Source: Capsaspora owczarzaki ATCC 30864 (lineage: Eukaryota; Opisthokonta; Filasterea). Taken from it: a stretch of DNA of 64,000 nt. The stretch is taken from assembly GCF_000151315.2 (NCBI RefSeq), contig NW_011887303.1:556719-620718 (forward strand), written 5' to 3'. Below, piece after piece: positions 4,129 through 55,323 of the stretch (positions are counted from its first letter, which is position 1; every line of letters begins with the position of its first letter). Below the pieces are notes generated by a model, which was not told the DNA's origin, searched no databases, and was given only the letters and a program-made list of their open reading frames with translations. A program made the position numbers and the translations under genes.

Positions 4129-7100
4129 TTAAACATATCCGACATAAAGATACTCAAGTACGTCATCGCTGGGACGCTCGCTGGGTTGAACTTGAACCTC
4201 CCAGCCCTCGCGCATTTGTCGGATGACATGATGCCTCGCTGGCCAGATTGTCGCAAGTCGAATGGTCGAGTCGACGAAAGTCGGCTTCGCAGCACATTCG
4301 TATCGAACAACACCTTGCTCATCTCGAACAGTCAAGTAAAACACGCAGTTCTGTTTCGACTTGCCTTTTGTGCTCTTGTCCCGAAGCACCCGAATTCCTT
4401 TCATGCGGATCGAATTCCCATTGATGCTTTGAGGCACTGTCACTTTCAGAACACCATCGGCGGTCCCGCCAATCAAATTCACTCGCTCCACGCCTTGCCA
4501 ATAAAATGCCTCGTCCATGATGAGATCAGCAATCTCAGCTGGTAGTGCAGGTAGAGATGCGGACTGATTCTCCAGCTCCAACCCGCTGGTCAGCATTCGG
4601 AACACGATCTGCAGGTCTTCAGCAGTTGCCAATCGTGGACGTAAGGCAAACGCAAGTGGGTTTATCTGGTAGTTGAGTCTATGCGACGAACAAGCAGCAG
4701 GATGCATCAGCAGTCAGCGAAGCCGCTCCACTGCTTGGAGAAGCATTGAATGAGCATCAAGGGCTCGAAACACATACTTCAGTTCAGTCAAAGGGCGTGC
4801 GTCCTGAATTGCCTGAGCCGCAACCTTGCCAATGCAATTAAAAGCTAGACTGTTTCTCGACAAGTAAGCAACGAGACAAGAGGCAAGTTCTGATCGATTC
4901 TGACTTAAAGTTCAATACGAGCAACGAGCAGAGCAACATACTTGAGCTTCTTCACCGATGTGTTCACCTTGAGAGCTTCAGCAATCGCCTTCGCTCCTTC
5001 ATCACCAATCTGATTCTCGTACAGACTGTCCATTTTCATAGGTGAGCTCTTTAGTGCCCTCTGTTAAATCACCCAAGCATCTGTCAAAATACATGTAAGA
5101 TGACTTACTTGAGCTCGGTCAATGACGTGTTCAATTTGAGTGCTTCAGCAATCGCCATCATGCCAAGATTGCCGATCTGATTCTCACCCAGGCTGTCCAA
5201 GTCCCATCTCTCATTGAGCACTCTGATTACCCTCTGCTGAATCACCCACTCACATACATCAGTCAAAGTGAGATGCCTTACTCGAGCGCAGGCAACGTCG
5301 TGTTCACCTTGAGTGCTTGAGCAATTGCTCGCGCGCCTGCATCGCCAATCTGATTGTCACCAAGACTGTCCTAGACATCAGCAAAGACTCTGAATTCCCT
5401 CAGATGTACCACCACGCACATTCATCGGATCAAGCGAGATGACTTACTTGAGCGAGTCTTCTTTTTTGTGGTGATTTTTGGGGTCGTCATAGAATTGGGT
5501 GTCAACTACCGCTGCTCCTCAGGACTCGGGTGCAGCGGCATCCCGTCGCCCAATCAGCATGGCGATGTGATGGCCTCGGAAACTGGTTGTCACCATCATT
5601 CAAGCCCCGAGCTGGTAACTCGGGCAATACGGGGTACGCGGCTTCTCTCTCTACCATCTCAACCCATCTCGCCGCCACGCGGCACTCTCCATCGTCCTGC
5701 CCTCGCGGCAGGCCCCGCCCGTCACCGGGCACGTCCTCCCTGTCTTCCAGACAGACCAAACGTCCTCTGCCTTCATGGCTGAACACAGTGGCTGGCCCCC
5801 ACGCCCCTGTCTTCGCGTCGGCGAGCTCCAGCTCGTCACGTTGTTCCGATCTCCATTTTCTTTTCTCCTCTCGTGCTGCTTCCTGCCAGGTCCCGAGGCA
5901 CAGTGGCCCACCTTCAACTCTTCGTTCCCGCTACTGATGCACCAAGGTCTCTCTCACTCCCGAAGAAGTGGTCCACCAGACCTTGGAGATCCGGACCAAT
6001 GAACGTCTTGCCACGCAACTGGTTGCCCTCGCGTACACCTAGTACCCGCGACTTGTGTGGTGAGCGGTTGGTTTCGATCTGAATTGTCGCTCCTTACGAC
6101 AGTGTGCTGTCCCACCGCCTGCCAGCCGTCTACTTGTTAGTGAACCGAAATGGCTAGCAACATGTCTTTCGTGGTGTATAGGTGGGGAAAGCCTGATCCA
6201 TCCACCGTCAGCTAGGCTGATCATCTGTTCGAGTTCCTCTGTGAGCTCTTGAGCACTCCTAAGCATGCCTTTTTTGGTGTGTTATTATGCGACATCCAAC
6301 TGTCTCATATCCTTCCTACGTTCTTTTTCTTTGTTATTCGTAATAAAGCTTTTAGACGAAAAAAAAAAAAAACTTACTTGAGCCAAGTCAGAGTCGTGTT
6401 CACTTTGAGTGCTTCAGCAATAGCTTGCGCTCCAATATCGCCAATCTTTTTGCTCAGACTGGTCGACCCTCCAGCAGTGAGCACTCTCCATGCTCTCTTC
6501 GGAATATTCATCAGTAACTCTGAGATTGCTTACTTGAGCACAGTCAGCGTCGTGTTCACTTTGAGTGCTTCAGCAATAGCCTGCGCTCCAGCGTCGCCAA
6601 TCAGATTCAGCCACAAACTGTCCATTCCTTTCATCAGTGAGCACTCCTGCTGTCATGTATCACCCACTCACATGCATCAGTTAATATGAGATGCTCACTA
6701 GAGCCGAGTGACTGTCGTGTTCACTTTGAGTGCTTCAGCAATCGCCTGCGCTCCAGCATCGCCAATCTGATTTTTGTCTAGACTGTTCATGCCTCCATCC
6801 GTGAGCACTCTGTATTGTCACTGGATGTCTCACTCACATGCATCAGTTCAAGCGAGATGCCTTACTCAAGCGTGGTCACAGTCGCGTTCACCTTGAGCGC
6901 TTCAGCGATCGCCTTTGCTCCAGCTTCACCAATCTGAATGTCCAACAGACTGTCCACTCCCAACTAGTGAGTGCTCTGATTGCCCTCCGATGGATCATCC
7001 TCAGTCAAAGTGAAATGAAATGACTCACTACAGCTTGGTCAGCGTCGTGTTTACTTTGAGTGCTTCAGCAATTGCCTGCGCTGCCGCGTCGCCAATCTGA

Positions 7101-7899
7101 TTTTGGCACAGACTGTCCATCCTCTCCGTCAGCGATCCCACCACTGGATTGCTCAATCACATGCATCAGTTCAAGCGAGATGCCTCACTTGAGCCAAGTC
7201 AGCGTCGTGTTCGCTCTGAGTGTCTCGGCAATTGCCCGCGCGCCTGCGTCGCCAATCTGATTATCACCAAGACTGTCCTAGACATTCAGCGAAGACTCTA
7301 GATTACTGACTTACATGCATCACCAAACGTGATTTTGCCTACCCGAGCGCAGTCACCGACGCGTTCACCTTGAGTGCTTCAGCAATCGCGTTCATTCCAC
7401 CTTCCCGTATCTGGTTCCTCTGTAAGCTGTCCTTTGTCCGTCAATAATGCATCTCAATGCGACTATTGGATCAGCCACTCACATGCATATTCAAGCGAGA
7501 TGCTTTACAAGAGCTGAGTCAGCGTCGTGTTCACTTTGAGTGTCTCAGCAATCGTTCGCGCGCCTGCATCGCCAATCTGATTCTTCCCCAGACTGTCCTC
7601 GACATCAGCGAAGACTCTGTATTGTCACTGGATTACTCGCTCGCATCCATCAGTTTGAGCGAGATGCCTTACGCAAGCGTGGTCACAGTCGCGTTCACTT
7701 TGAGTGCCTCAGCAATCGCCCTCGCGCCAGCATCACCAATCTCTTCCTCTGGCAGGCTGTCCTCCATGCAGTACAGTCAATACACGCGCAGTCACACTGT
7801 TGCAATAGCTTCGGCTACTAACCTCAGTTCTCCTCTCGCATTCTTGACTTTATCATACAACTCGCGCTGTCTCCGAGTCATACTCCGATACGACAGCAT
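4129..7899 (-). CDS. RI/NLR-type leucine-rich-repeat protein, one 28-residue LRR per exon
   Basis: Fifteen exons can be read on the minus strand with all phases agreeing: 7823-7899, 7673-7756, 7509-7592, 7343-7426, 7189-7272, 7029-7112, 6866-6949, 6699-6782, 6534-6617, 6378-6458, 5282-5365, 5109-5192, 4942-5025, 4778-4849 and 4129-4678. Twelve internal exons each encode one ribonuclease-inhibitor-type LRR with the consensus LGxNQIGDAGAxAIAEALKV followed by NTTLTxL. Eleven are exactly 84 nt and one is 81 nt. A shorter 72-nt repeat follows, then a C-terminal region of about 180 residues containing LPAEIADLIMDEAFYW, which I cannot assign. No NACHT, TIR or membrane segment is visible. The protein is about 565 residues, probably an intracellular binding scaffold. 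The intron at 5366-6377 carries a retroposed insertion yet keeps its splice donor, so the gene may still be expressed. Confidence 0.85.
4778..7756 (-). repeat. Array of thirteen single-LRR exons (84-nt unit)
   Basis: Exon-sized repeats recur every 150-180 bp, each ending in a GT donor just after the LxxLxxL part of the LRR and starting after an ACAG-type acceptor. Every intron interrupts the codon at the same phase (phase 2), so units are interchangeable. Introns are 66-92 bp apart from the one that carries the insertion. The identical NTTLT and GDAGA coding blocks point to recent or ongoing duplication of exon-plus-intron units. Confidence 0.85.
5454..6371 (+). mobile_element. Polyadenylated retroposed insertion (LINE-mediated) inside an LRR intron
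   Basis: A 918-bp segment is flanked by a perfect 12-bp direct repeat (ACTTACTTGAGC at 5442-5453 and 6372-6383). It ends on the plus strand in an A-run (6359-6371) preceded by AATAAA at 6342-6347. Target-site duplication plus a 3' poly(A) tail is the hallmark of L1-type retroposition, so this is a 5'-truncated LINE, a SINE or a processed copy of some transcript. I recognise no reverse transcriptase or other protein in it. Removing the insert and one repeat copy leaves an 82-bp intron, matching its neighbours (66-92 bp). Confidence 0.8.
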
Positions 7900-42625: not shown

Positions 42626-45600
42626 CTACATGACGACACAGGAGCCCCCAGGACAGAACAACTGGGAGCGAGCGCCATCTCGTTCCGGATTACCCAGCAC
42701 CCGCAATGCTTGCTTGCGGCGCCGTTGGTTGAGTTCTGGTTTGGAGATGAGGTTGGAGCTGTCTGGATTGTCCAGGGCGTAATTTAAGCGTTCGGTGCTA
42801 GCACGAGTGGATGGGGTGTGCTCGCCAGAAGAGTGATGATGCAAGTCCGACGTGGAGGAGGCCAAGCTTGAACTAAACGCGCCAGGTACACGAGCGTCTT
42901 CAAAGTCTAAACCGCCAGGCGCTTCTTCTTCCAGGTGGCCAGGTAAGGGGTCGATGGCGAACGGTGATGAGGTGCCTGCGTCGTTTGCCTCGATGTGCTC
43001 ATCCGTGTTATCCAGCAAACTGGTTCGATCGACAGAGCGGTCTTGCTGCTTGTTTGCGCGGGAACCCAGGAAGCTGCCGCGGTGTACGCTGAGTCTCGAG
43101 CCTCCCGCGACGGAAGCGTCCTTGGCCTTACCGCTCAGCCGCTCAGCACTGCTAGGAGAAGCAGCACTCGGTGAAGAAGGGGCAGCGACAGGTGCTGGGC
43201 TGCTGTTTTTGCGATGCACTGCGAGCAGGAGCGATGGAGCAGAGTTTGGAGACGAAGGAGCGGCTTTCATGGATGGGTTGTGCTGAGAAAATGAACCATG
43301 CGGCTGCACTGGCGAGGCTTGGCCAGCAGGAAAGTCTTCACCCCAACCCATGGAACCGGCGCGACGGTCCGAAACCAGGTTGGTCATTGTGATGCTGCCG
43401 AGACTGTCTGACGAGTCGGAAGCCGTCATGGACAAGGAGTCAAATGGAGCTAACGCCAACGCGCTGTGTCGATGGGATGTGCTCGGCTTTCCAAATGGAT
43501 CGACCAGTGCGTGGTTTTGAGTGGGAGGAGGGAGAGTGGTGGACGGGCTACTTGCGCTATCAGCACTTCCATGACTCGATTGTCGCGTTGCAACAGTCGT
43601 GGACAATCGCAGCGGGTGAGAGGTGTTGCTTTCATTGGAAGGCGAGCCTGCGTTGGCGTGGTGTGGCAAAGTGCCGTGTGCCGGTGCAGCAGTGCCCACG
43701 TCTGGGAATGGATCCGAGTGTCGGAACGAGTTCTTCGAGTCCTGGACGACGACCGCAGCGGAAGAAGACATTGCAGGAACAACCGCCGCACCAGAAGCAG
43801 GGACGGGCGTGGGCAGCAGCGGTAACGAACTTTGCGAGAGCAGCGGGATGTCGAGATTGGGCGTCGGCGCCTGCCGAGCTTCCGGCTTGGTGTCTGCACC
43901 GCCAAGCCGCATGCTAAAGGCCGAATGCGCTGGACTTGGGGCTGACTGGCTCGAGTCCGGTTCAAGCGTTGACTCTGACGAAAGGGCCGTGGCGCTGGGG
44001 GACGATGTGGCGTGTGTGCTTGCGGGCGAGACGCCCACGCTCGCCTGAAGAATCGGGGCTGGCGATGGGGTGCCCGAGAGGTCCAAGCCTAGCGGCACTG
44101 ACGACGCCTTGGCTGACGATGCCACGGGTGTAAATATGTGATTGGTGGGCCGTCCATGGGCTGCGACATACGCTGCATAGGTTGTCGTTGACGGCGACTT
44201 TGCAGCCGCAGTCTCGGCGGAGGCGATGCGTGACGGGGAAGCCGGCGGATCTGCATTGTTGACAACAGCAGAAAGCGGCGAGCCGTTCACGAACGCATCC
44301 GCTGACGGAGTTAAGGACGGCGTCAGTGTTGGGCTTTTGGGGGACGGAGTTGCGACAGGCGATGGTCGGTTGTCAAAGCTAATGGACGCGCTGGACGCTC
44401 GGCGCACAAAGATGGGCGAAGCAAGGCCGCTTCCACTGCTGGCGCCAAACGCCTTGAAGGAGCTGAGCGGTGTGACACGCGTCGCTTTGATGTTGAGCGG
44501 CGCCGAGGCGCCACCCTGTTGCACAGCAGCTGACAAGTGTTGCGCTGAGAGGGACATGCGCGACTTTTGGGCATTCGCACCCAAGGGACTGAACTGGGTG
44601 GCGCTTGACTCATCCTGAGGACTGGCCATTTTTGCAGCGCCGGGCTGATCACTGGACGCCAGCGCAACAATTCCACTGAGAGACGTGCTACGAGGGAATG
44701 TCCCATTCGACATTTTCGAGCTGCTTGGGGCAGAGCTGGCGAGGACAGTCTCGATGGAAGTGTCGGCAGACGATGGCGCTGAAGGCGGAGCAGCGCCCGG
44801 TTGGCGACGGAAGGTGCCGGTTTCGCGCGCCCCCGCCGTGCTGGTTGGCCATTTTGTCGTGCTGTCCAAAGTCAGCGGCGGCGTTGAATCCGACTCGTCG
44901 TCATCGCCGCCGGCTTCCGATGCCTTTTCCTCTTCTTCCGCCTCGTCTTCTTTTGCGTCCTCTTCTGCTCCTTCCTCGTCACTGGCTTCCTCGGCGAAGG
45001 AAGCGACTGCCGGACGTCCGATCAGCGTTAGCGACCCGCGACGCTGTGGCAGCAAGCTCTGGGCCAGACTTGTGACTGCAGGCGCTTGAAGAGGCGCCGG
45101 AGCGGCAGGCGACTCGGACGAATGGTGGTTGTCAAACTCAAAATTGAAAATGGCGTCGGGAGTCATGCTGCGCCGTGGCTGAGGGAGAGGCTGCACGGGT
45201 CCTCGGGTGGATGGAGACTGCGGCGCACTGCCATAGCCTCCGTGGTCTGAAACATCGAGCCGTACGTCCGGCGATGCATGGCCAAGGAATCCCTTGCCGG
45301 CGAGCAGGTGGCTCGCGTTCTTGGACGGCGATGTGCTGATGGACGGGAGATTGGTTGCTTCGCCGAGTCGGCCACCAGCCCCGCCGCTGCTCAAACCGCT
45401 CGACAGTCCACCGGAAAGCGGTGATGGCCCAAGCGACGACGAGTTCAGAGTGTGGGAGCGAACACGAGAAAATCCAGGCGAGCCTAGCGCGCCTGATTCA
45501 GGGGTGCTTGGCTTTCGCGGGGACGCGAACGGCGAGGATGAGGGTGAGGCGTTTCGATTGCGCGAATCGAACAGGCCGCCGCTGGAATTGCGGGCGCTCA

Positions 45601-47005
45601 GACGAGGGGCAAAGCTGCCACTTTCTGATGCAAGTCCTCTGGGCGAAGGCGCGTCGTCCGCACCGTCCTCCTCGAGGCGGGCTCGCAGCTCAATCAATCC
45701 ACTGTCGGTGGATGGAAGCCGGTAGGGTAGCGAGTTTTTCCGCTTCAAATTGTTCAGCATGGGCGGCGGTTTCTTTTGCAACCGCTTCATGTGCTGGTGC
45801 GCGAGCAAGTAGAATGTCGCAGTGACGTGGTCATAGGCGTCGGACGCAAGTGACTTGAGCACAGTTTCGCGATCAATATCAATTTCTTTGAGGCGCTGGA
45901 AGACGAGCTCCTGCTCGTGCGGAGGCAAGTTGGCAATGTCAAAGACGGGTTCCTTGACCTCAATGGGGGTGTCGTCAGCAGCAGTAATCCACGCTGTTTG
46001 CTTGATCACGCTCAGTGACATGCGCTTCGTGGGTTCGACAATCAACATGCCTCGAATGAGGTCTGCGCACTCGCTGGACACGTGAGCGGGGATGGTAAAT
46101 CGTCCTTCCATAATGTGCACGATCGTTTCCGAGGCGCCCGCTTCTTGAAAGGGCAGAGATCCGCACACCATCATGTACAATATGACTCCGAGGCTCCAGA
46201 TATCTGGGGCGTTGAAAAAAATGGGGGAAGGTGGTGGTGGTGGTGGTGGAGCAGAGTGAGATCGTACGTTCAAACCAAATTTCCGGACCAAAAACAAACC
46301 CTCAGCCAAAACTCGAATTAGAGAAAAAAAAAACTTACCCACAGCTGGACCGTCATACTCGTCGCCAAGAAGCACTTCGGGAGGAGAGTATGCGAGCGAG
46401 CCGCACGCGGTTTGCAGCTTTTGCCCTTGCTCGTACGAGTTGGAAAACCCAAAGTCGGTGATTTTGATGGAGCCGCCGCTAAAGAGAATGTTTTCGGGCT
46501 TGAGATCGCGATGCACAATGTGCAGCGAGTGACAAAACTCGATGGCCGACAGAATCTGACGAAAGTACGACCTGGCCACGTCCTCCTCGAGCTTGCCGTT
46601 GCGCGTGATTGTTTCGTAGAGGTCGCCGCCGGCGCCCCATTCCATGATAATGTACAGTTTGGCTGCCGTGTCCATGACCTCAAACAGGCGAATGACGTGG
46701 GGGTGATTGAGGATTTTCATGCACCGCACTTCCTGGAAGAGATGGCGTTTGGCAACGTCGTCGAGCTTTGTCTTGTCGATAATCTTGACCGCGACCTGCT
46801 CGCCCGTGAACACGTGCTCGGCCAGCTTGACAACGGCAAAATGGCCACGTCCGAGCGTTTCCTTAAAGTCATACAATCCGACAAACTCGCCCGAGCTCGA
46901 TCCCAGCGGCCGCATGCCCGGAACGCCCGTTCCGCCAGCGACGCCTTGAGCAGCACCGGTCGAGCCCATCATTCCACCGGCAGCCGCCCCGACACCGCCG
47001 CCGCC

Positions 47006-47037
<32 letters not shown>

Positions 47038-48118
47038 TACTACTATTACTGGCAGTGTTTGCTCCACCACCGGCAGAGTACGGGCGCGAGCTGTTGACCT
47101 TGGCAATTTTGGCGACTGCCTCGGCGTTGACGCTGCTGCTGATGGGCGACTGTGCCGCCAGCAGCGAGGCCATCGTTGGAGACGCCAAGTTGGAGGATGA
47201 TGGAGACGGCGTGGACGACGAAGGGCCCGCTGCTGATGCTTGGGCAGTCATCGAGGATGGAGGATGCAGTGGAGCAATGGAGGAGCTCCGGTCCCGCGTC
47301 GGCCGCTGGTGAGCGTCGCCCGTGGATGCCAGTGTGATATTCGCTCCACGGGATGCCGATGCCAGTGCGGACGGAGGCACAGCAGCAGCAGCAGCAGCAG
47401 CAGGAGCGGTGGCAGACGGAGCGGTCGGCTCGGGCTCGGCAGCGCCTGACGGTGCAGCACTGGCAGCAGTCCCTCCCAGAGACGCAAGCAAGCTGGCTCC
47501 AGACCCAGCTGATGCGAGGACGGGCGAGCCGGACGCAGACGAAGGGGAAGAGCCGGCAGCAGCTGCAGCAGCGACTGGGCTACCCGACATGACTGCTGCT
47601 GCTGCTGCTGCTGCACCAACTCCAGCAGACGATGCAGACGATGCAGCCGACGCTGGTGTCGATGTCGATGTCGATGTCGATGTCGATGCTCGTGCAGCGA
47701 TGGCGGCCTGCTCAATGCTCTCTGCAGCGGCAATCGCCTCTTCGTCCTCTTCCTGCAGCTGCGACTTGCTTGTCGTCCTCCGCCGCCGTCGCGATGCTGT
47801 TCCTGCTGTTGTTCCTGTTGGTGCTGATGCTGGTGCTGATGCTGAGGCGGTTGTTGGCTCTGTGATTGGATTGTCGCTGAACGAGACGGTTGCTTTGCGT
47901 CTCCTGCTGCTGGCTGTTGGCGAGGCGAGCAAGCTGCCCACCGCTGCTGCTGCTGCTGCTGCATCGTCACTGCTGATCGATTGAGACTGAGTCGCAGCAG
48001 CAGCAGATGGGACGGATGCCGGTCGCTGCTGCTCAGCTCGAGCCGCGCCATCCTCGCTCTCCTCGTCCTTCTCCTCAAAGACGGTCAGCGACGGGGCTGC
48101 GGATGCGTGTCCAGCCAT
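42626..48118 (-). CDS. SNRK: SNF-related serine/threonine kinase (SNRK)
   Basis: Two exons (46339-48118, 42626-46203) encode about 1,785 residues, against 765 in human SNRK. After a Ser/Ala-rich leader of about 400 residues comes the kinase: GRGHFAVVKLAEHVFTGEQV, VAVKIIDKTKLDD, LFQEVRCMKILNHPHVIRLF, the catalytic loop HRDLKPENILF, DFGFSN, CGSLAYSPPEVLLGDEYDGP and DIWSLGVILYMMVCGSLPFQ. A UBA-like segment follows (DRETVLKSLASDAYDHVTAT). All catalytic residues are present. These blocks match SNRK rather than AMPK or MARK. The roughly 1,050-residue tail is Ser-rich and disordered and ends in CVVM, a CaaX box. The intron at 46204-46338 is 135 bp, a multiple of three, and free of stops. The start at 48118 (MAGHASAAPS) is preferred; upstream codons look like untranslated T-rich leader. 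Confidence 0.9.
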
Positions 48119-48486
48119 TTGTGGTGTTTGGTGCACGTCGCCCACACTCCCCGCGCTTTTGGTTGGCTGTTTGTTGTGTTGCCTGTGTTGACGGATGAAG
48201 AAGAAGCTGTGGGGTCGAAGAAAAGGGAGAACAATTGAAAAAGAAAAAAAAATGAATGGAGTTGCATTGGGATTTTGTGTTTGTGTTTGGTGGTGCATGT
48301 TCACAAACGCAAAACGCCGGAACACCGGTTCAAGTTGTAAACAATGCAGAAAAGGGCCTGCGAGTGAGTACTGGCGAGAAATGGAATCGGAACTCATGAA
48401 GCTTCTACGTGAAAAACCAAGAAAGTGCAGTTTGGACAAAACAAAAAGAGGGCTGCATTTGCATCTTGTAGAAAAACGAGGCCCAT
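48119..48486. other. Upstream region of SNRK / 3' flank of DDX47
   Basis: About 370 bp between two same-strand genes. It has a T-rich run on the coding strand just upstream of SNRK (near 48238-48252). No gene is supported. Confidence 0.5.
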
Positions 48487-51243: not shown

Positions 51244-54200
51244 CTACACGAGCAACGCAAACATTGCCGCAACGGCTCCAAGGGCGGCCAGACTGGGAAG
51301 TGCAGCGGCATTCAGACCAGGAGCACTGTTTCCGGCGATATTGGCGCCAGAAGGTGCGACAATCGAACCAGAAGGTGCGACAACGGCACCCGAGGACGCC
51401 CCAGGAACGACCGACGGCGGGCTAGTCAGGCACAGATTGTTCGTGTCGCAGTACAGGCAGTTTGCATCACAGCAAGAGGTAGATCCAGCATCGTAGCAGG
51501 TAGCACATGCGGGGTCGCAAGCTAAGAACACGTTCGAGACAGAGAACAACGGTGAGCAGACTGCGAGTTCAAACCGAAAAGTCGGTGCGATATTTTGTGG
51601 ACGTACGCAACGGGTCCTCGGCCGTGCCAAAGGTGCTCGGAGGTGCCGCGGCGCCAACAAACTCGTTCGGCACAAGGCTCACAAAGGTCAAGTTGTTCAA
51701 GCCAACGAACAGACCGGGAGGCAGCGTAGTCAGCTTGGTCGAGCTCAAGTACCTAGCAAATGTTGTCTGCTGAGTCAAAGTGCCCACCCAACGAGCATTG
51801 TGTGGCCCACGAGCTAGCCTTACAGGGAGCTCAGGCTTTGCAAACCATTAAAGACGTTCGCGTCGAGCGTTGCGATTGGAGTCGAGTCCAGGTACCTGAC
51901 AGAGAGAGTGCTCATCAATATTCCATTCTTGTAGACCGTCCATGCTCAGCTCGAACGGATTGCTTACAGCGTTTCAAGATCAACAAGGCCAGTGAACCAA
52001 CTCGCGGTCACGGTGGTGATCTGCGTGTAGCCCAAGTCCCTGCTCCCCCAAATACAAAACACTCCATGAATAACGCGGTGAAGGAGCATGCACACAAAGC
52101 TCAAAGGCGCGTACAAATAGGTCAGTTCTTTCAGGCCAGCAAAGGCGTTTGACGAAATTGCCGACAGCGACGTGTTGTACAAGCTCCTGGTGACAGAAAG
52201 CATTCAAAAACAACAACAACCGTGAGCAGCGAAGCCGCGAGCCACTCTCGCATCATCCAAGTCACTCACAAAAGCTCAAGCTCAATCAGGCCGCCAAACG
52301 TAGTGTCGGAAACGCTTGTAATCGCCAGGTAGTCCAAGTACCTGCCATACACAATCAGCAAAGTGAGAACACTGTGGAAGCGCCGTCGCTGTCACAAGAC
52401 CTCATTTTTAGTTTACAGATTCTCAAGATCAACGAGCGCGCTGAACGCATTGTCTGGAACAGTGTTGATGAGCGTGTTATCCAGATACCTGCGGAAACGT
52501 GGACAAGGCCATTTCAGCGCAGTTAGCCTTCAAACTTGGGTCCAAACCCACTTTACGCGTTAAAACTCACAAAGTTTCAAGGCTGGTGAGACCAGAGATT
52601 TGGGTAACAGGAACTGCATTGATCTGAGTTGATCCAAGATCGCTGTTTTCACGGAAAGGTCAGTAACTAGGCAATTGTGCAGCAACTCCACACGCTCTCT
52701 GGCATACAGGTATTCCAGCAGCGTCAGTCCAGCGAAGGCAGCGTCCGAAACGGAATTCACTGACGAGTTGTAAAAGCTCCTGAAACGTGACCAGATTCGT
52801 GAGCGACTCTGAACATGCCTTCTCTTCACAGCGATGGTTTGATTCAAGCTTACAGGCTCAGGAGATTCACCAGGCTGTTGAAAGCATTGTCCGAAATCGA
52901 GGTGATTGGAGTGTTGTCAAAGAAGCTGGCAAGTTGCAGAAACGGAAAAGTAAGCGTGCTTGTTTGTACAAATAACACGAACCGCAATTGTTGATCATAC
53001 AGCGCCTGCAGAGCGGCAAGGACGGTAAATGAACCGCTTGGAACGGCAGTGAGCTGAGTCGAGCTCAAGTGCCTATCGTGAGTTGCATCAGGTGAGCAAA
53101 GCGAGAACCAGCAAGGGTAGGCTCATATCATTTGTTTCTTGGCTTACAAGGATTGAAGCTGAGTCAAGGAGGCGAACGCGTTGTTGGCAACGTTTGTGAT
53201 CGGGGAGCCGTCCAAGTCCCTGATTTCAGACACAAAAAGGTTGGTTGTGAGAGGGCGAATTGCACACAGGCAACTCCGTTTCTTTCAAAGCCGCCGCCTT
53301 CTTACAGATACGTCAAACTCGAGAGCCCATCAAACGCATTGTCCGGAAGATCTGTGATTTGCGGAGACCTCAAAGTCCTGTTGGGGTAACAAAGGCATTT
53401 TCCTACGGTCAATCTCGCGATTGCTTCTAGGCTCCATTGCTATTGCCCGCGTCACACTTACAAAAACTCCAAAGTGCGAACGAGCGCAAGTGAAGCAGTC
53501 GGGATACCCGTGACGAGAATCGATGACAAATGCCTGCGACAACGCAGTTGAGGTCAGTCGCCAGGTTCAATGCTCGTCAAAACTGTTCGAATCATACAAT
53601 GACTGCAAGGAGCTGAGGCCACCGAATGCGTTGCTCGAAATGGTTGTAATGGGGCACGAGTCCAGGTCCCTAGAGCCAAACGAATTCAAGGTTAGCACGC
53701 CGTTGAAAAGGAGACGGCACTCACACACGCACAAAGCTGGCAAATCGCTTCCTTACAAGTAAAGCAATGTTGTCAGACCATTGAAACTGAGATCGGGAAG
53801 CGAAGCCACCTTGGCATTGGACATGTACCTACCCAAGAGCACAATCGAGGTCGACAGTCAAATTGCTTGGGAAAGCATGGCAGAAAGTATCCAAAGAAAC
53901 AGGTCAGCGACTCACAAGTACTGAAGACTCGTCAGAGCGGCAAAGGCGGTCGTGGGGATTGCGGTCAGTTCAGTATACGAGACGTCTCTGTGAGCAACTC
54001 AAACGGCGTGACGGCAGCAGCACGGTGAGAAACAGTCTCGGCTTTCCCCCCTGTAAAACAAGCGCTCGTCACTACGCCGTACAGAGACACTAGCTGGGAC
54101 GCGCCGGTAAATGCGCTGTCAGTGATGGCATTGATCGGGCAGCTGTTCAGATCGCTGGACAAACAAACGGTAGGGTCAGCCAAATATGAAACTAGACTGC

Positions 54201-55323
54201 GTTTCAGTGACGCCTGAGGCTTACAGATACTGCAGGCTAGAAATGCCGGCGAGCGCGTTGTCGGGAATGCTTGAAATCAAAGTGAATCCCAAGTAGCTGC
54301 AAAGTTCCGTCAGATGTGCCAACGCACTGCCACGCGTCAAGCTCGCAAGACACGTACAGAGACTGCAGGGAAGTCAAGCCATTGACAGCGTTGCTTGGAA
54401 TGGCTGTCAGCAAGGTCAAACTCAGATCGCTACGAAGCAAACGGGTGAGACGGGGGAACCTCGACTTCCCTCGTAGATCACACGCATCGATCCGGCGTAC
54501 ATTGTGTTCAGGGAGGTCAAGCTGGTGAACGCGTTGTCGGGAAGGCTTGCAATCGAGGTATTCACGAGGCGGCTGGCAGAAAAAACACCATCAACTAGTG
54601 AGCACGACATGAGACAGCATTTGAACTGTCTCAACCGAGATCTTACATGTGCTGCAAGGACGTCAGGCCTGCAAAGGAATTGACGGTGACGGTTGCAATG
54701 GGGCAATAGTCCAAGTACCTAAGCAGCAGCAGCAGCAGCAGCAGCAGCGAATGCACATGAGCCAAGCCAACCGCGAGCAATCAAAACACAAATGTCTGAT
54801 CCGAACAAACTCACAAGAACTGGAGCGACGGGAGCCCTGCGAATGCGTTGTCCGGAATGCTTTTGAGCAGCGTAAAGCTCAGGTCACTACAAGCGCGCGT
54901 TCCCACATACGTTCCAAGGCAAAGAGGTGAGCATGAATCTCATGACACACTGATCGTGGTGGCTGCTGTGACGTACAGGCTTTGAAGAATGGTCAGGCCG
55001 GCAAACGCGTTCGGTGCAATGTCCGCGATTGAAGTTCCAGACAAATCACTAGTTTCAAGGAGAGGAGCTCATGAGAAAACGTTTCAAGTTGCCAACGTCA
55101 ACAAGAGAACCAGATTTGACCAAGCGTACAGGGCGACAGTGTTTGAGGGGATGTTGGTTGGAACGGTGGTGATGGTGCTCGAGCAGTTGCTGACGAACGA
55201 GTTCTGGCAAATGCACACGGTGCATGCGTCCTCGGCGTAAACAGGTTTCATTGACGTGCACGCAAGTAACACCCCGAGCAGGATGAATGCGCGACCTCCA
55301 GCCGCCAAATTGAGCTTCATCAT
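51244..55323 (-). CDS. Secreted, probably GPI-anchored LRR protein A: 22 consecutive 72-nt LRR exons
   Basis: Twenty-five exons join perfectly into 733 residues. The first exon (55130-55323) holds a signal peptide and a Cys-rich N-cap (DACTVCICQNSFVSNCSSTI then TTVPTNIPSN). Then come 22 exons of exactly 72 nt, from 54977-55048 down to 51824-51895, each one 24-residue LRR of the form LDLSxTxIxxIxxNAFxGLT followed by xLxS. A C-cap exon follows (51607-51752; YLSSTKLTTLPPGLFVGLNN, LVPNEFVGAAAPPSTFG). The last exon (51244-51521) carries a Cys cluster (CDPACATCYDAGSTSCC then CDANCLYCDTNNLC), a Pro/Ser stalk and a hydrophobic end LAALGAVAAMFALLV with no cytoplasmic tail, as in GPI-anchor signals. 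It is likely a cell-surface recognition or adhesion protein; the ligand is unknown. The paralogue lies immediately upstream. Confidence 0.92.
51824..55048 (-). repeat. 22-unit single-LRR exon array (72-nt exons)
   Basis: Exon starts (low coordinate) are 51824, 51968, 52115, 52270, 52417, 52571, 52708, 52854, 53001, 53148, 53306, 53462, 53598, 53757, 53916, 54083, 54225, 54358, 54501, 54647, 54815 and 54977. Each exon spans exactly 72 nt, starts one base into a codon and ends two bases into the next, so all are phase-matched. The introns between them are 61-96 bp. Donors read CTGTA/CTGTG or similar, and acceptors end in AG before the YL/DL codons. Confidence 0.92.

Follow-up and report, generated by a model that had tools for sequence, protein, structure and literature searches.

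The minus strand of the window, a 64,000-nt stretch of the Capsaspora owczarzaki ATCC 30864 genome, carries an LRR gene of 25 exons and 24 introns running from 55323 to 51244, together with a tandem paralog (Table 1). The initial annotation had described 22 consecutive same-phase 72-nt exons with introns of 61-96 bp, and exon mapping bore this out: all 22 measure exactly 72 nt and encode one LRR each, and all 24 introns, which do span 61-96 bp, run from GT to AG. Introns 1-23, flanking the 72-nt exons, lie in phase 2, while intron 24 is not in phase 2; each 72-nt exon opens with the third base of a codon and closes with the first two bases of another. The exons sum to a coding sequence of 2202 nt, or 734 codons including the stop (733 aa plus the stop), unbroken as had been claimed. 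The proposed modularity is likewise supported by the 22 symmetric exons between phase-2 introns, and since each of them is symmetric, skipping any one leaves the frame intact.

Table 1. Positions in the window of the exons of the 22-repeat LRR gene and of its tandem paralog.
Feature	Position	Strand
Exon 1 (194 nt, phase-2 end): signal peptide followed by the cysteine N-cap (CTVCIC...NCSSTITTVP)	55130..55323	-
LRR exon 1 (72 nt)	54977..55048	-
LRR exon 2 (72 nt)	54815..54886	-
LRR exon 3 (72 nt)	54647..54718	-
LRR exon 4 (72 nt)	54501..54572	-
LRR exon 5 (72 nt)	54358..54429	-
LRR exon 6 (72 nt)	54225..54296	-
LRR exon 7 (72 nt)	54083..54154	-
LRR exon 8 (72 nt)	53916..53987	-
LRR exon 9 (72 nt)	53757..53828	-
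LRR exon 10 (72 nt)	53598..53669	-
LRR exon 11 (72 nt)	53462..53533	-
LRR exon 12 (72 nt)	53306..53377	-
LRR exon 13 (72 nt)	53148..53219	-
LRR exon 14 (72 nt)	53001..53072	-
LRR exon 15 (72 nt)	52854..52925	-
LRR exon 16 (72 nt)	52708..52779	-
LRR exon 17 (72 nt)	52571..52642	-
LRR exon 18 (72 nt)	52417..52488	-
LRR exon 19 (72 nt)	52270..52341	-
LRR exon 20 (72 nt)	52115..52186	-
LRR exon 21 (72 nt)	51968..52039	-
LRR exon 22 (72 nt)	51824..51895	-
Exon 24: final LRR and linker (146 nt)	51607..51752	-
Exon 25 (278 nt): cysteine tail (CDPACATCYDAGSTSCCDANCLYC) and stalk, then a hydrophobic, charge-free C-terminus up to the stop (GPI-type)	51244..51521	-
Tandem paralog: 11 exons, 423 aa	56233..58281	-
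Tandem paralog exon 1	58281-58100	-
Tandem paralog 72-nt LRR exons 1-4	58008-57937, 57867-57796, 57729-57658, 57586-57515	-
Tandem paralog 72-nt LRR exons 5-8	57430-57359, 57284-57213, 57138-57067, 56982-56911	-
Tandem paralog last two exons	56832-56684, 56597-56233	-

A scan of the window for AG-72-GT exons whose phase-2 frame is open and whose hydrophobic residues are spaced as in an LRR returned 28 on the minus strand (22 in the LRR gene and 6 in its neighbour). Chance is excluded for the 22-exon array because the plus strand gave a single exon and the reversed window, on both strands, none. The exon-length spectrum, taken over the 22-repeat gene, its neighbour and ten stretches with relatives, is led by 72 nt with 222 matches, followed by 60 nt with 20; matches shorter than 72 nt are taken to be mostly cryptic acceptors within the same exons. 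The window also has an array of 84-nt single-repeat exons, which belongs to another LRR class. The genome as a whole holds four integrin-beta loci and four T-box loci, a content that suits the filasterean Capsaspora, if imperfectly, as three T-box genes are reported for it.

The 22-repeat protein consists of a signal peptide, a cysteine N-cap, 24-residue LRRs, a cysteine tail and a GPI-type C-terminus, the latter and the signal peptide being assigned by hydropathy only. The tandem paralog has the same kind of N-cap, cysteine tail and C-terminus, though a single charge falls among its final 22 residues, and Gaa1, a part of the GPI transamidase, is encoded in the genome. The product is probably a secreted LRR ectodomain with a presumed GPI anchor, and these signals speak for the surface location that had been claimed. 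A Pfam scan (E up to 0.1) of the protein returned LRR families and a few others below the cut-off, with no ROC, COR or kinase domain and no LRRCT family, a different cysteine tail following the LRRs. Among solved proteins, IGFALS, LGR4/5 and the TLRs come closest.

Within the 22-repeat gene, exons are at most 67% identical to one another, and mean intron identity is 0.527 against 0.516 for shuffled introns (maximum 0.604 against 0.625, five shuffles). Because the introns are no more alike than shuffled ones, we reject recent amplification of this gene. Recent duplication is not supported here, as 0 of 378 exon-plus-intron unit pairs from the gene and its neighbour reach 80% similarity in the exon and also in the intron. 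The 22-repeat gene itself is old and now static, and the divergence among its repeats is too great for a rate test. Exon similarity has a lag-3 periodicity whose mean was reached by none of 5000 order shuffles and whose best diagonal was reached by 6 of 5000. The paralog differs from the 22-repeat gene by whole units, with 8 LRR exons against 22; its exons 1-4 and 5-8 best fit exons 1-4 and 19-22 of the longer array, a score reached by 0 of 20000 shuffles. As these eight exons fit the end blocks, about 14 internal exons would have been gained or lost, in a block whose inner border is uncertain.

Elsewhere in the genome lie three near-identical relative arrays of 45, 39 and 35 exons, counts that carry the caveat that such arrays are prone to misassembly, and they differ by whole exon-plus-intron units. 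The 45-exon relative is a single run in which stretches of 639 and 418 bp recur exactly at a 12-unit offset, the 39-exon relative includes one unit of 68 nt, which would put it out of frame, and the 35-exon array is followed by a gap of 100 N. Between the 45- and 39-exon arrays, identity is 95% or higher in 24 of the 35 units aligned. Duplicated exon-plus-intron units, which the initial annotation had proposed to look for, were thus found in the relatives as exact copies of up to 639 bp, and these sister genes look as if copying and loss of whole single-repeat exons were still going on in them. For the LRR-exon family, the data support germline unequal exchange as the presumed mechanism; of the earlier idea of unequal crossing-over, whole-unit gain and loss is supported in the paralog and relatives, and recent activity is not supported in the 22-repeat gene.

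Two of the three near-identical arrays are followed by a tyrosine-kinase region, and of 9 relative genes followed to their ends, 7 carry a kinase domain. Among 61 LRR clusters, hand-picked among the matches listed, with exon structure checked for a minority (at least one, C3:428678, departs from one repeat per exon), 23 have a match to PF07714, a model that spans tyrosine and serine/threonine kinases, no more than 7 kb downstream in the same orientation, compared with 1 in the opposite-strand control. These counts use 133 of the 152 PF07714 matches as kinase places, and the 61 clusters leave out the 22-repeat gene and its neighbour, as well as LRR genes that lie in long frames without introns.

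Replacement changes in the relatives are concentrated on the concave face, whose residues change faster than other residues and than introns, and outpace silent sites in only one of three comparisons. In 28 of the 35 collinear unit pairs of the 45- and 39-exon arrays, concave positions 2, 4, 5 and 7 gave 20/282 for replacement against 51/2313 for intron plus silent sites (ratio 3.2, p=3.5e-5) and were far above other replacement sites (p=1e-7), p-values that are optimistic because units share history. Against silent sites alone, with the same 28 pairs for the 45- and 39-exon arrays, the ratio was 3.56 (p=0.0005) in one of five comparisons, whose remaining four gave 1.37 (p=0.18), 1.45 (p=0.13), 1.14 (p=0.09) and 0.94 (p=0.64). 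For units at least 97% alike, in an analysis that covered all 35 collinear pairs and stricter subsets, it was 1.27 against pooled neutral sites (2/180, p=0.5). The ratios only suggest positive selection on the concave face of the relatives, and weakly, since the comparison with silent sites weakens the signal.

We think it somewhat probable that the 22-repeat gene encodes a GPI-type LRR ectodomain built of germline-recombining units, old in this gene and recent in relatives with a varying concave face. Because a single symmetric phase-2 exon encodes each 24-residue repeat, exon plus intron would serve as the unit of germline recombination, and unequal crossing-over or conversion could lengthen, shorten and reshuffle arrays by whole repeats with the frame unbroken. 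The gene and its tandem paralog would have changed long ago in blocks of 3 and about 14 exons and be static now, and the relatives, several with a tyrosine-kinase domain, would have gained and lost units recently. Their concave face, presumably ligand-binding, would vary most, and each allele may give one invariant product. A more speculative extension, which we hold to be unlikely, is that a single-celled animal relative keeps germline-diversified LRR receptors, a germline counterpart, outside animals, to the lamprey VLR strategy, with binding faces that evolve as single-repeat exons are added, deleted and shuffled for the recognition of microbes, prey, host or kin. The postulated repertoire would comprise receptor tyrosine kinases, transmembrane partners that lack the kinase, and GPI-type decoys or co-receptors. 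If confirmed, the recombining arrays themselves would show how such an organism could arrive at many receptor specificities ahead of animal-type tyrosine-kinase signalling, and the LRR-exon family would be a concrete place to seek self or non-self recognition in the unicellular relative of animals.

The layout could instead have been left over passively from old duplications of LRR exons, as in the gonadotropin/LGR receptor genes of animals, with modularity that has no selected role in an ordinary adhesion or surface protein, a reading that we find doubtful but to which we give an appreciable chance. The old, static units of the 22-repeat gene are consistent with it, as are the identity of the nearest solved proteins and the lack of a significant replacement excess over silent sites in 4 of 5 comparisons. 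The 84-nt array in the same window also fits, and with it the single-repeat-exon layout is common in LRR genes here. However, the exact unit duplications in the relatives and the concentration of replacement changes on their concave face suggest that for part of the family the layout does matter.

Skipping of the symmetric 72-nt exons might also yield many receptor isoforms from one genome. All 22 exons would keep the frame, several splice variants are described for brown-algal ROCO genes whose exons are of this type (PMC11378527), and regulated skipping in Capsaspora is enriched in kinase genes (PMC3870316), some relatives of the present gene carrying tyrosine kinases. Nevertheless, published exon skipping is scarce in Capsaspora, with only 191 cassette exons at a PSI under 95% (PMC3870316), and skipped exons of unicellular holozoans have no 3n bias, that is, no bias to frame-preserving skipping (PMC6142364). 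The introns are also short, and the donors of the array exons have a purine at +3 in 22/22 and G at +5 in 21/22, and we consider this explanation quite improbable. Somatic assembly, in which the gene would receive copies of single-LRR cassettes within the cell's lifetime, is rejected as extremely unlikely: the genome sequence already contains the whole gene, which leaves nothing to assemble, APOBEC_N (PF08210), the sole deaminase model searched in the genome, had no match at E up to 1, the LRRCT cap is absent, and the introns bear no sign of homogenising exchange.

Lamprey VLRs have 24-residue LRR modules between caps, a GPI-type end and a variable concave face, and are assembled somatically by cassette copying. 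The 22-repeat protein is superficially VLR-like in its 24-residue modules between fixed caps and its GPI-type end, and a VLRA chain matches it at E 2.5e-31, behind many other LRR proteins. The VLR comparison made at first is an analogy only, given the differing C-terminal cap, a gene already complete in the genome and no match for APOBEC_N, the sole deaminase model searched.

Germline recombination of whole units, the reading we favor, has parallels in other lineages. LGR exons are 72 nt long and exon number is fixed in the gonadotropin receptors and LGR4-6, which are seven-transmembrane receptors, unlike the GPI-type 22-repeat protein that has LGR4/5 among its best solved matches. Brown-algal LRR-ROCO genes were reportedly studied by Zambounis et al. 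in 2012. Exon-per-LRR arrays recombining by whole units are already published for brown algae (PMC11378527) and Tetrahymena (PMC6564038). According to the former, the LRR-ROCO genes of Ectocarpus and Saccharina likewise have one 72-bp phase-2 exon per LRR, their exons shuffle, and diversifying selection is reported on the concave face; gonadotropin receptors likewise have single-LRR exons and phase-2 introns (PMC11378527). The brown-algal proteins are LRR-ROC-COR GTPases with reported splice variants (PMC11378527), whereas the 22-repeat gene has no ROC or COR, and the Capsaspora family, from another lineage, consists of secreted GPI-type or transmembrane/tyrosine-kinase proteins. A literature search that covered few subscription papers and not the Capsaspora genome paper found, in the text available, no such arrays reported in a unicellular animal relative or as receptor tyrosine kinase ectodomains. 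LRR genes of Tetrahymena also have exactly equal exons with an extreme phase-2 bias, 1 to 51 per gene, and unequal crossing-over is proposed, with recent and old age classes, the youngest genes being pericentromeric and subtelomeric (PMC6564038). The exons of this ciliate are 90 bp long, in contrast to the 72-nt exons of Capsaspora, and a link to a LINE-like element is reported (PMC6564038).

The array of the 22-repeat LRR gene is best read as a germline recombination module, in which misaligned exchange between units (one 72-nt single-LRR exon plus its adjoining intron) would still give a legal solenoid, longer or shorter, since each repeat of the array is encoded by one symmetric exon between short introns. 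Exchange of units would account for the fixed length and phase of the exons, for the periodicities by block, for differences of whole units and, in young members, for duplicated introns, and it would place diversity between genes and alleles rather than among the transcripts of one gene. The 22 array exons follow one another, all exactly 72 nt and in phase 2 on both sides, each opening with base 3 of a codon and closing with bases 1 and 2 of the next. The exon length, shared phase and intron range described in the initial annotation are borne out by our exon reading. In a scan of the window for 72-nt LRR exons, 28 were found on the minus strand against a single one on the plus strand, and the reversed sequence of the window yielded none. 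LRR families matched along the whole protein in a Pfam scan, and its hydrophobic C-terminus abuts the stop, with no charged residue in the last 22. This gene and its tandem paralog appear to be the kinase-less, GPI-type form among the relatives, and Gaa1 is encoded in the same genome.

Coordinates and composition of the 22-repeat LRR gene, its tandem paralog and their relatives (C, contigs; L, fetched stretches of the same genome)
Feature	Location	Strand	Description
22-repeat LRR gene	55323-51244	minus	CDS 2202 nt; 24 introns of 61-96 bp
Its exon 1		minus	194 nt; signal peptide and cysteine cap
Its final two exons		minus	146 + 278 nt; last LRR, cysteine-rich tail, stalk, hydrophobic C-terminus
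Tandem paralog	58281-56233	minus	directly upstream of 22-repeat LRR gene; 11 exons, 423 aa
45-exon array	C18:156.7-162.8 kb		72-nt LRR exons
39-exon array	C16:9.1-3.7 kb		72-nt LRR exons
35-exon array	C16:39.9-35.1 kb		72-nt LRR exons
9-exon LRR array	C18 end, C18:166.8-168.0 kb (L072 5279-6506)		within 0.1 kb of contig end
Relatives with transmembrane segment and kinase	L062, L064, L065, L067, L068 with L072, L069, L070
Kinase-less transmembrane relatives	L063, L066		short cytoplasmic tail with several tyrosines

The 22-repeat LRR gene itself is old, as the best nucleotide identity between any of its 22 exons is 67%. A search for duplicated intron sequence was negative in this gene, since its introns resemble one another no more closely than shuffled ones do (mean identity 0.527 vs 0.516). 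Exon similarity has a three-exon period: none of 5000 order shuffles gave as high a lag-3 mean, and 6 of 5000 matched its top diagonal, exons 1-15 against 4-18. The tandem paralog has eight 72-nt LRR exons and an N-cap, Cys tail and C-terminus like those of its neighbor. When its exons 1-4 and 5-8 were set against exons 1-4 and 19-22 of the 22-repeat LRR gene, the score was matched by 0 of 20,000 shuffles. The ends of this match are firmer than its inner boundary, because an unconstrained mapping scores slightly higher (412 vs 408), sending paralog exons 5 and 6 to 7 and 16. As their end exons match, the two genes differ by about 14 middle exons, a frame-keeping difference that possibly arose as one block.

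The genome that holds the gene (27.46 Mb in 29 contigs) was searched for relatives, with 95 matches in the protein search, including the gene's own exons, and 157 in the LRR_8 search. At least two 72-nt LRR exons were present at 15 of the 31 distinct places found by these searches, counted by hand and excluding the 22-repeat LRR gene and its neighbor. The 45-exon array contains blocks of units duplicated without a mismatch (639 and 418 bp), the copies lying 1629 bp, or 12 units, apart, over an underlying four-unit period. Pairs of units with 80% or higher identity in the exon as well as in the intron numbered 45 of 946 in this array, 18 of 55 in L063 and 1 of 105 in L062, and none were found in L064, L065, L066 or L067. 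Three dispersed copies (L018, C6:980 kb; L021, C1:1768 kb; L026, C15:581 kb), 97-98% identical over 2.0-2.7 kb, each hold four 72-nt LRR exons, and C11:330071 may be a fourth.

Unit-by-unit alignment of the three near-identical arrays showed 35 units common to the 45- and 39-exon arrays (95% identity or more in 24) and 30 common to the 45- and 35-exon arrays, the remainder being whole units without a partner. The 35-exon array lacks any equivalent of units 13-20 of the 45-exon array, and its own units 20-24, absent from the 45-exon array, are 89-100% identical to 39-exon units 24-28; the breakpoints are uncertain because the 45-vs-39 alignment puts the difference elsewhere (four unmatched units). 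The proposal of unequal crossing-over is thus supported in the relatives, by whole-unit differences and exact unit duplications, and not by the introns of the 22-repeat LRR gene. Between 72-nt exons 32 and 33 of the 39-exon array lies a 68-nt unit (L070 reverse strand, near 4772), whose splicing in would shift the frame; this copy may be damaged or misassembled there. A gap of 100 N follows the 35-exon array. The 45- and 39-exon genes sit close to contig ends, and the two end stretches examined showed no telomere repeats. The LRR array at the C18 end halts in a CA repeat, and the C18 assembly seems to stop inside a gene.

Variation was examined at LRR positions 2, 4, 5 and 7, which we take to line the concave face, a set fixed ahead of the test. 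In the main comparison, 28 of the 35 collinear unit pairs of the 45- and 39-exon arrays, concave-face replacement sites changed at 20/282 vs 51/2313 for intron plus silent sites (ratio 3.2, Fisher p=3.5e-5), and other replacement sites changed at about 1%, below the concave face (p=1e-7); 24 of 8855 four-position sets, this one counted, reached its rate. With all 35 pairs the pooled ratio was 1.86 (p=0.00025), and restricting it to units of 97% identity or more gave 1.27 (two changes, p=0.5). Six disjoint neighboring pairs in L063 gave 18/56 vs 77/490 (ratio 2.0, p=0.0033; rate reached by 253 of 8855 sets), the remaining two array comparisons 1.91 (p=0.01) and 2.08 (p=0.003), and units within the 45-exon array 1.64. 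Against silent sites alone, the ratio was 3.56 (p=0.0005) in one comparison and elsewhere 1.37 (p=0.18), 1.45 (p=0.13), 1.14 (p=0.09) and, in L063, 0.94 (p=0.64). The concave face is therefore the part that varies in the relatives, at or above the neutral rate, and positive selection on it is supported in one comparison but not established.

In seven of the nine relative genes whose ends were read, the LRRs and shared cysteine tail are followed by a transmembrane segment and then by a kinase domain, located from the matches of a kinase search. The tyrosine-kinase motif HRDLAARN is present wherever the sequence read from these extends far enough. The kinase-less L063 and L066 proteins could be partners of the kinase members. 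For the 35-exon array, neither a transmembrane/tyrosine tail nor a kinase was found within the stretch fetched. Among 61 LRR clusters picked by hand, a same-strand PF07714 match lies no more than 7 kb downstream in 23, vs 1 of 61 in the opposite-strand control. Tyrosine motifs recur in the L063 and L066 tails (for example NPTYEAL...LYEAV) and resemble paired phosphotyrosine docking motifs.

The principle of an exon-per-LRR array is already known. According to PMC11378527, brown-algal ROCO genes likewise have 72-bp phase-2 single-LRR exons, with exon shuffling, splice variants and concave-face selection, and gonadotropin receptors are cited as an animal case. Tetrahymena arrays also use phase-2 exons, but of 90 bp and from 1 to 51 per gene; they are ascribed to unequal crossing-over, possibly with retrotransposition, by authors who knew of none like them elsewhere (PMC6564038). 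Within the partial texts covered by our literature search, no prior report was found of such arrays in this lineage, in a cell-surface setting or joined to tyrosine kinases. Alternative splicing would be compatible with the frame whichever array exon were skipped, but the published Capsaspora catalogue lists 191 cassette exons whose PSI falls below 95% (PMC3870316), and skipped exons in unicellular holozoans are without 3n bias according to PMC6142364. Tetrahymena is the sole non-animal named there with such a bias, which, we would guess, stems from its 90-bp LRR exons.

The solved proteins nearest by sequence to the 22-repeat LRR protein are IGFALS, LGR4/5 and Toll-like receptors. Elsewhere in the window, a second single-repeat exon set of another LRR class (28 residues, ribonuclease-inhibitor type) lies at 7756-5109 on the minus strand, with nine exons of 84 nt and one of 81 nt in a shared phase, and a tandem-repeat finder reported a repeat at 6376-7278 with 71% matches. 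A 1937-aa open frame at 42626-48439, also on the minus strand, has a protein kinase domain and short tandem repeats.
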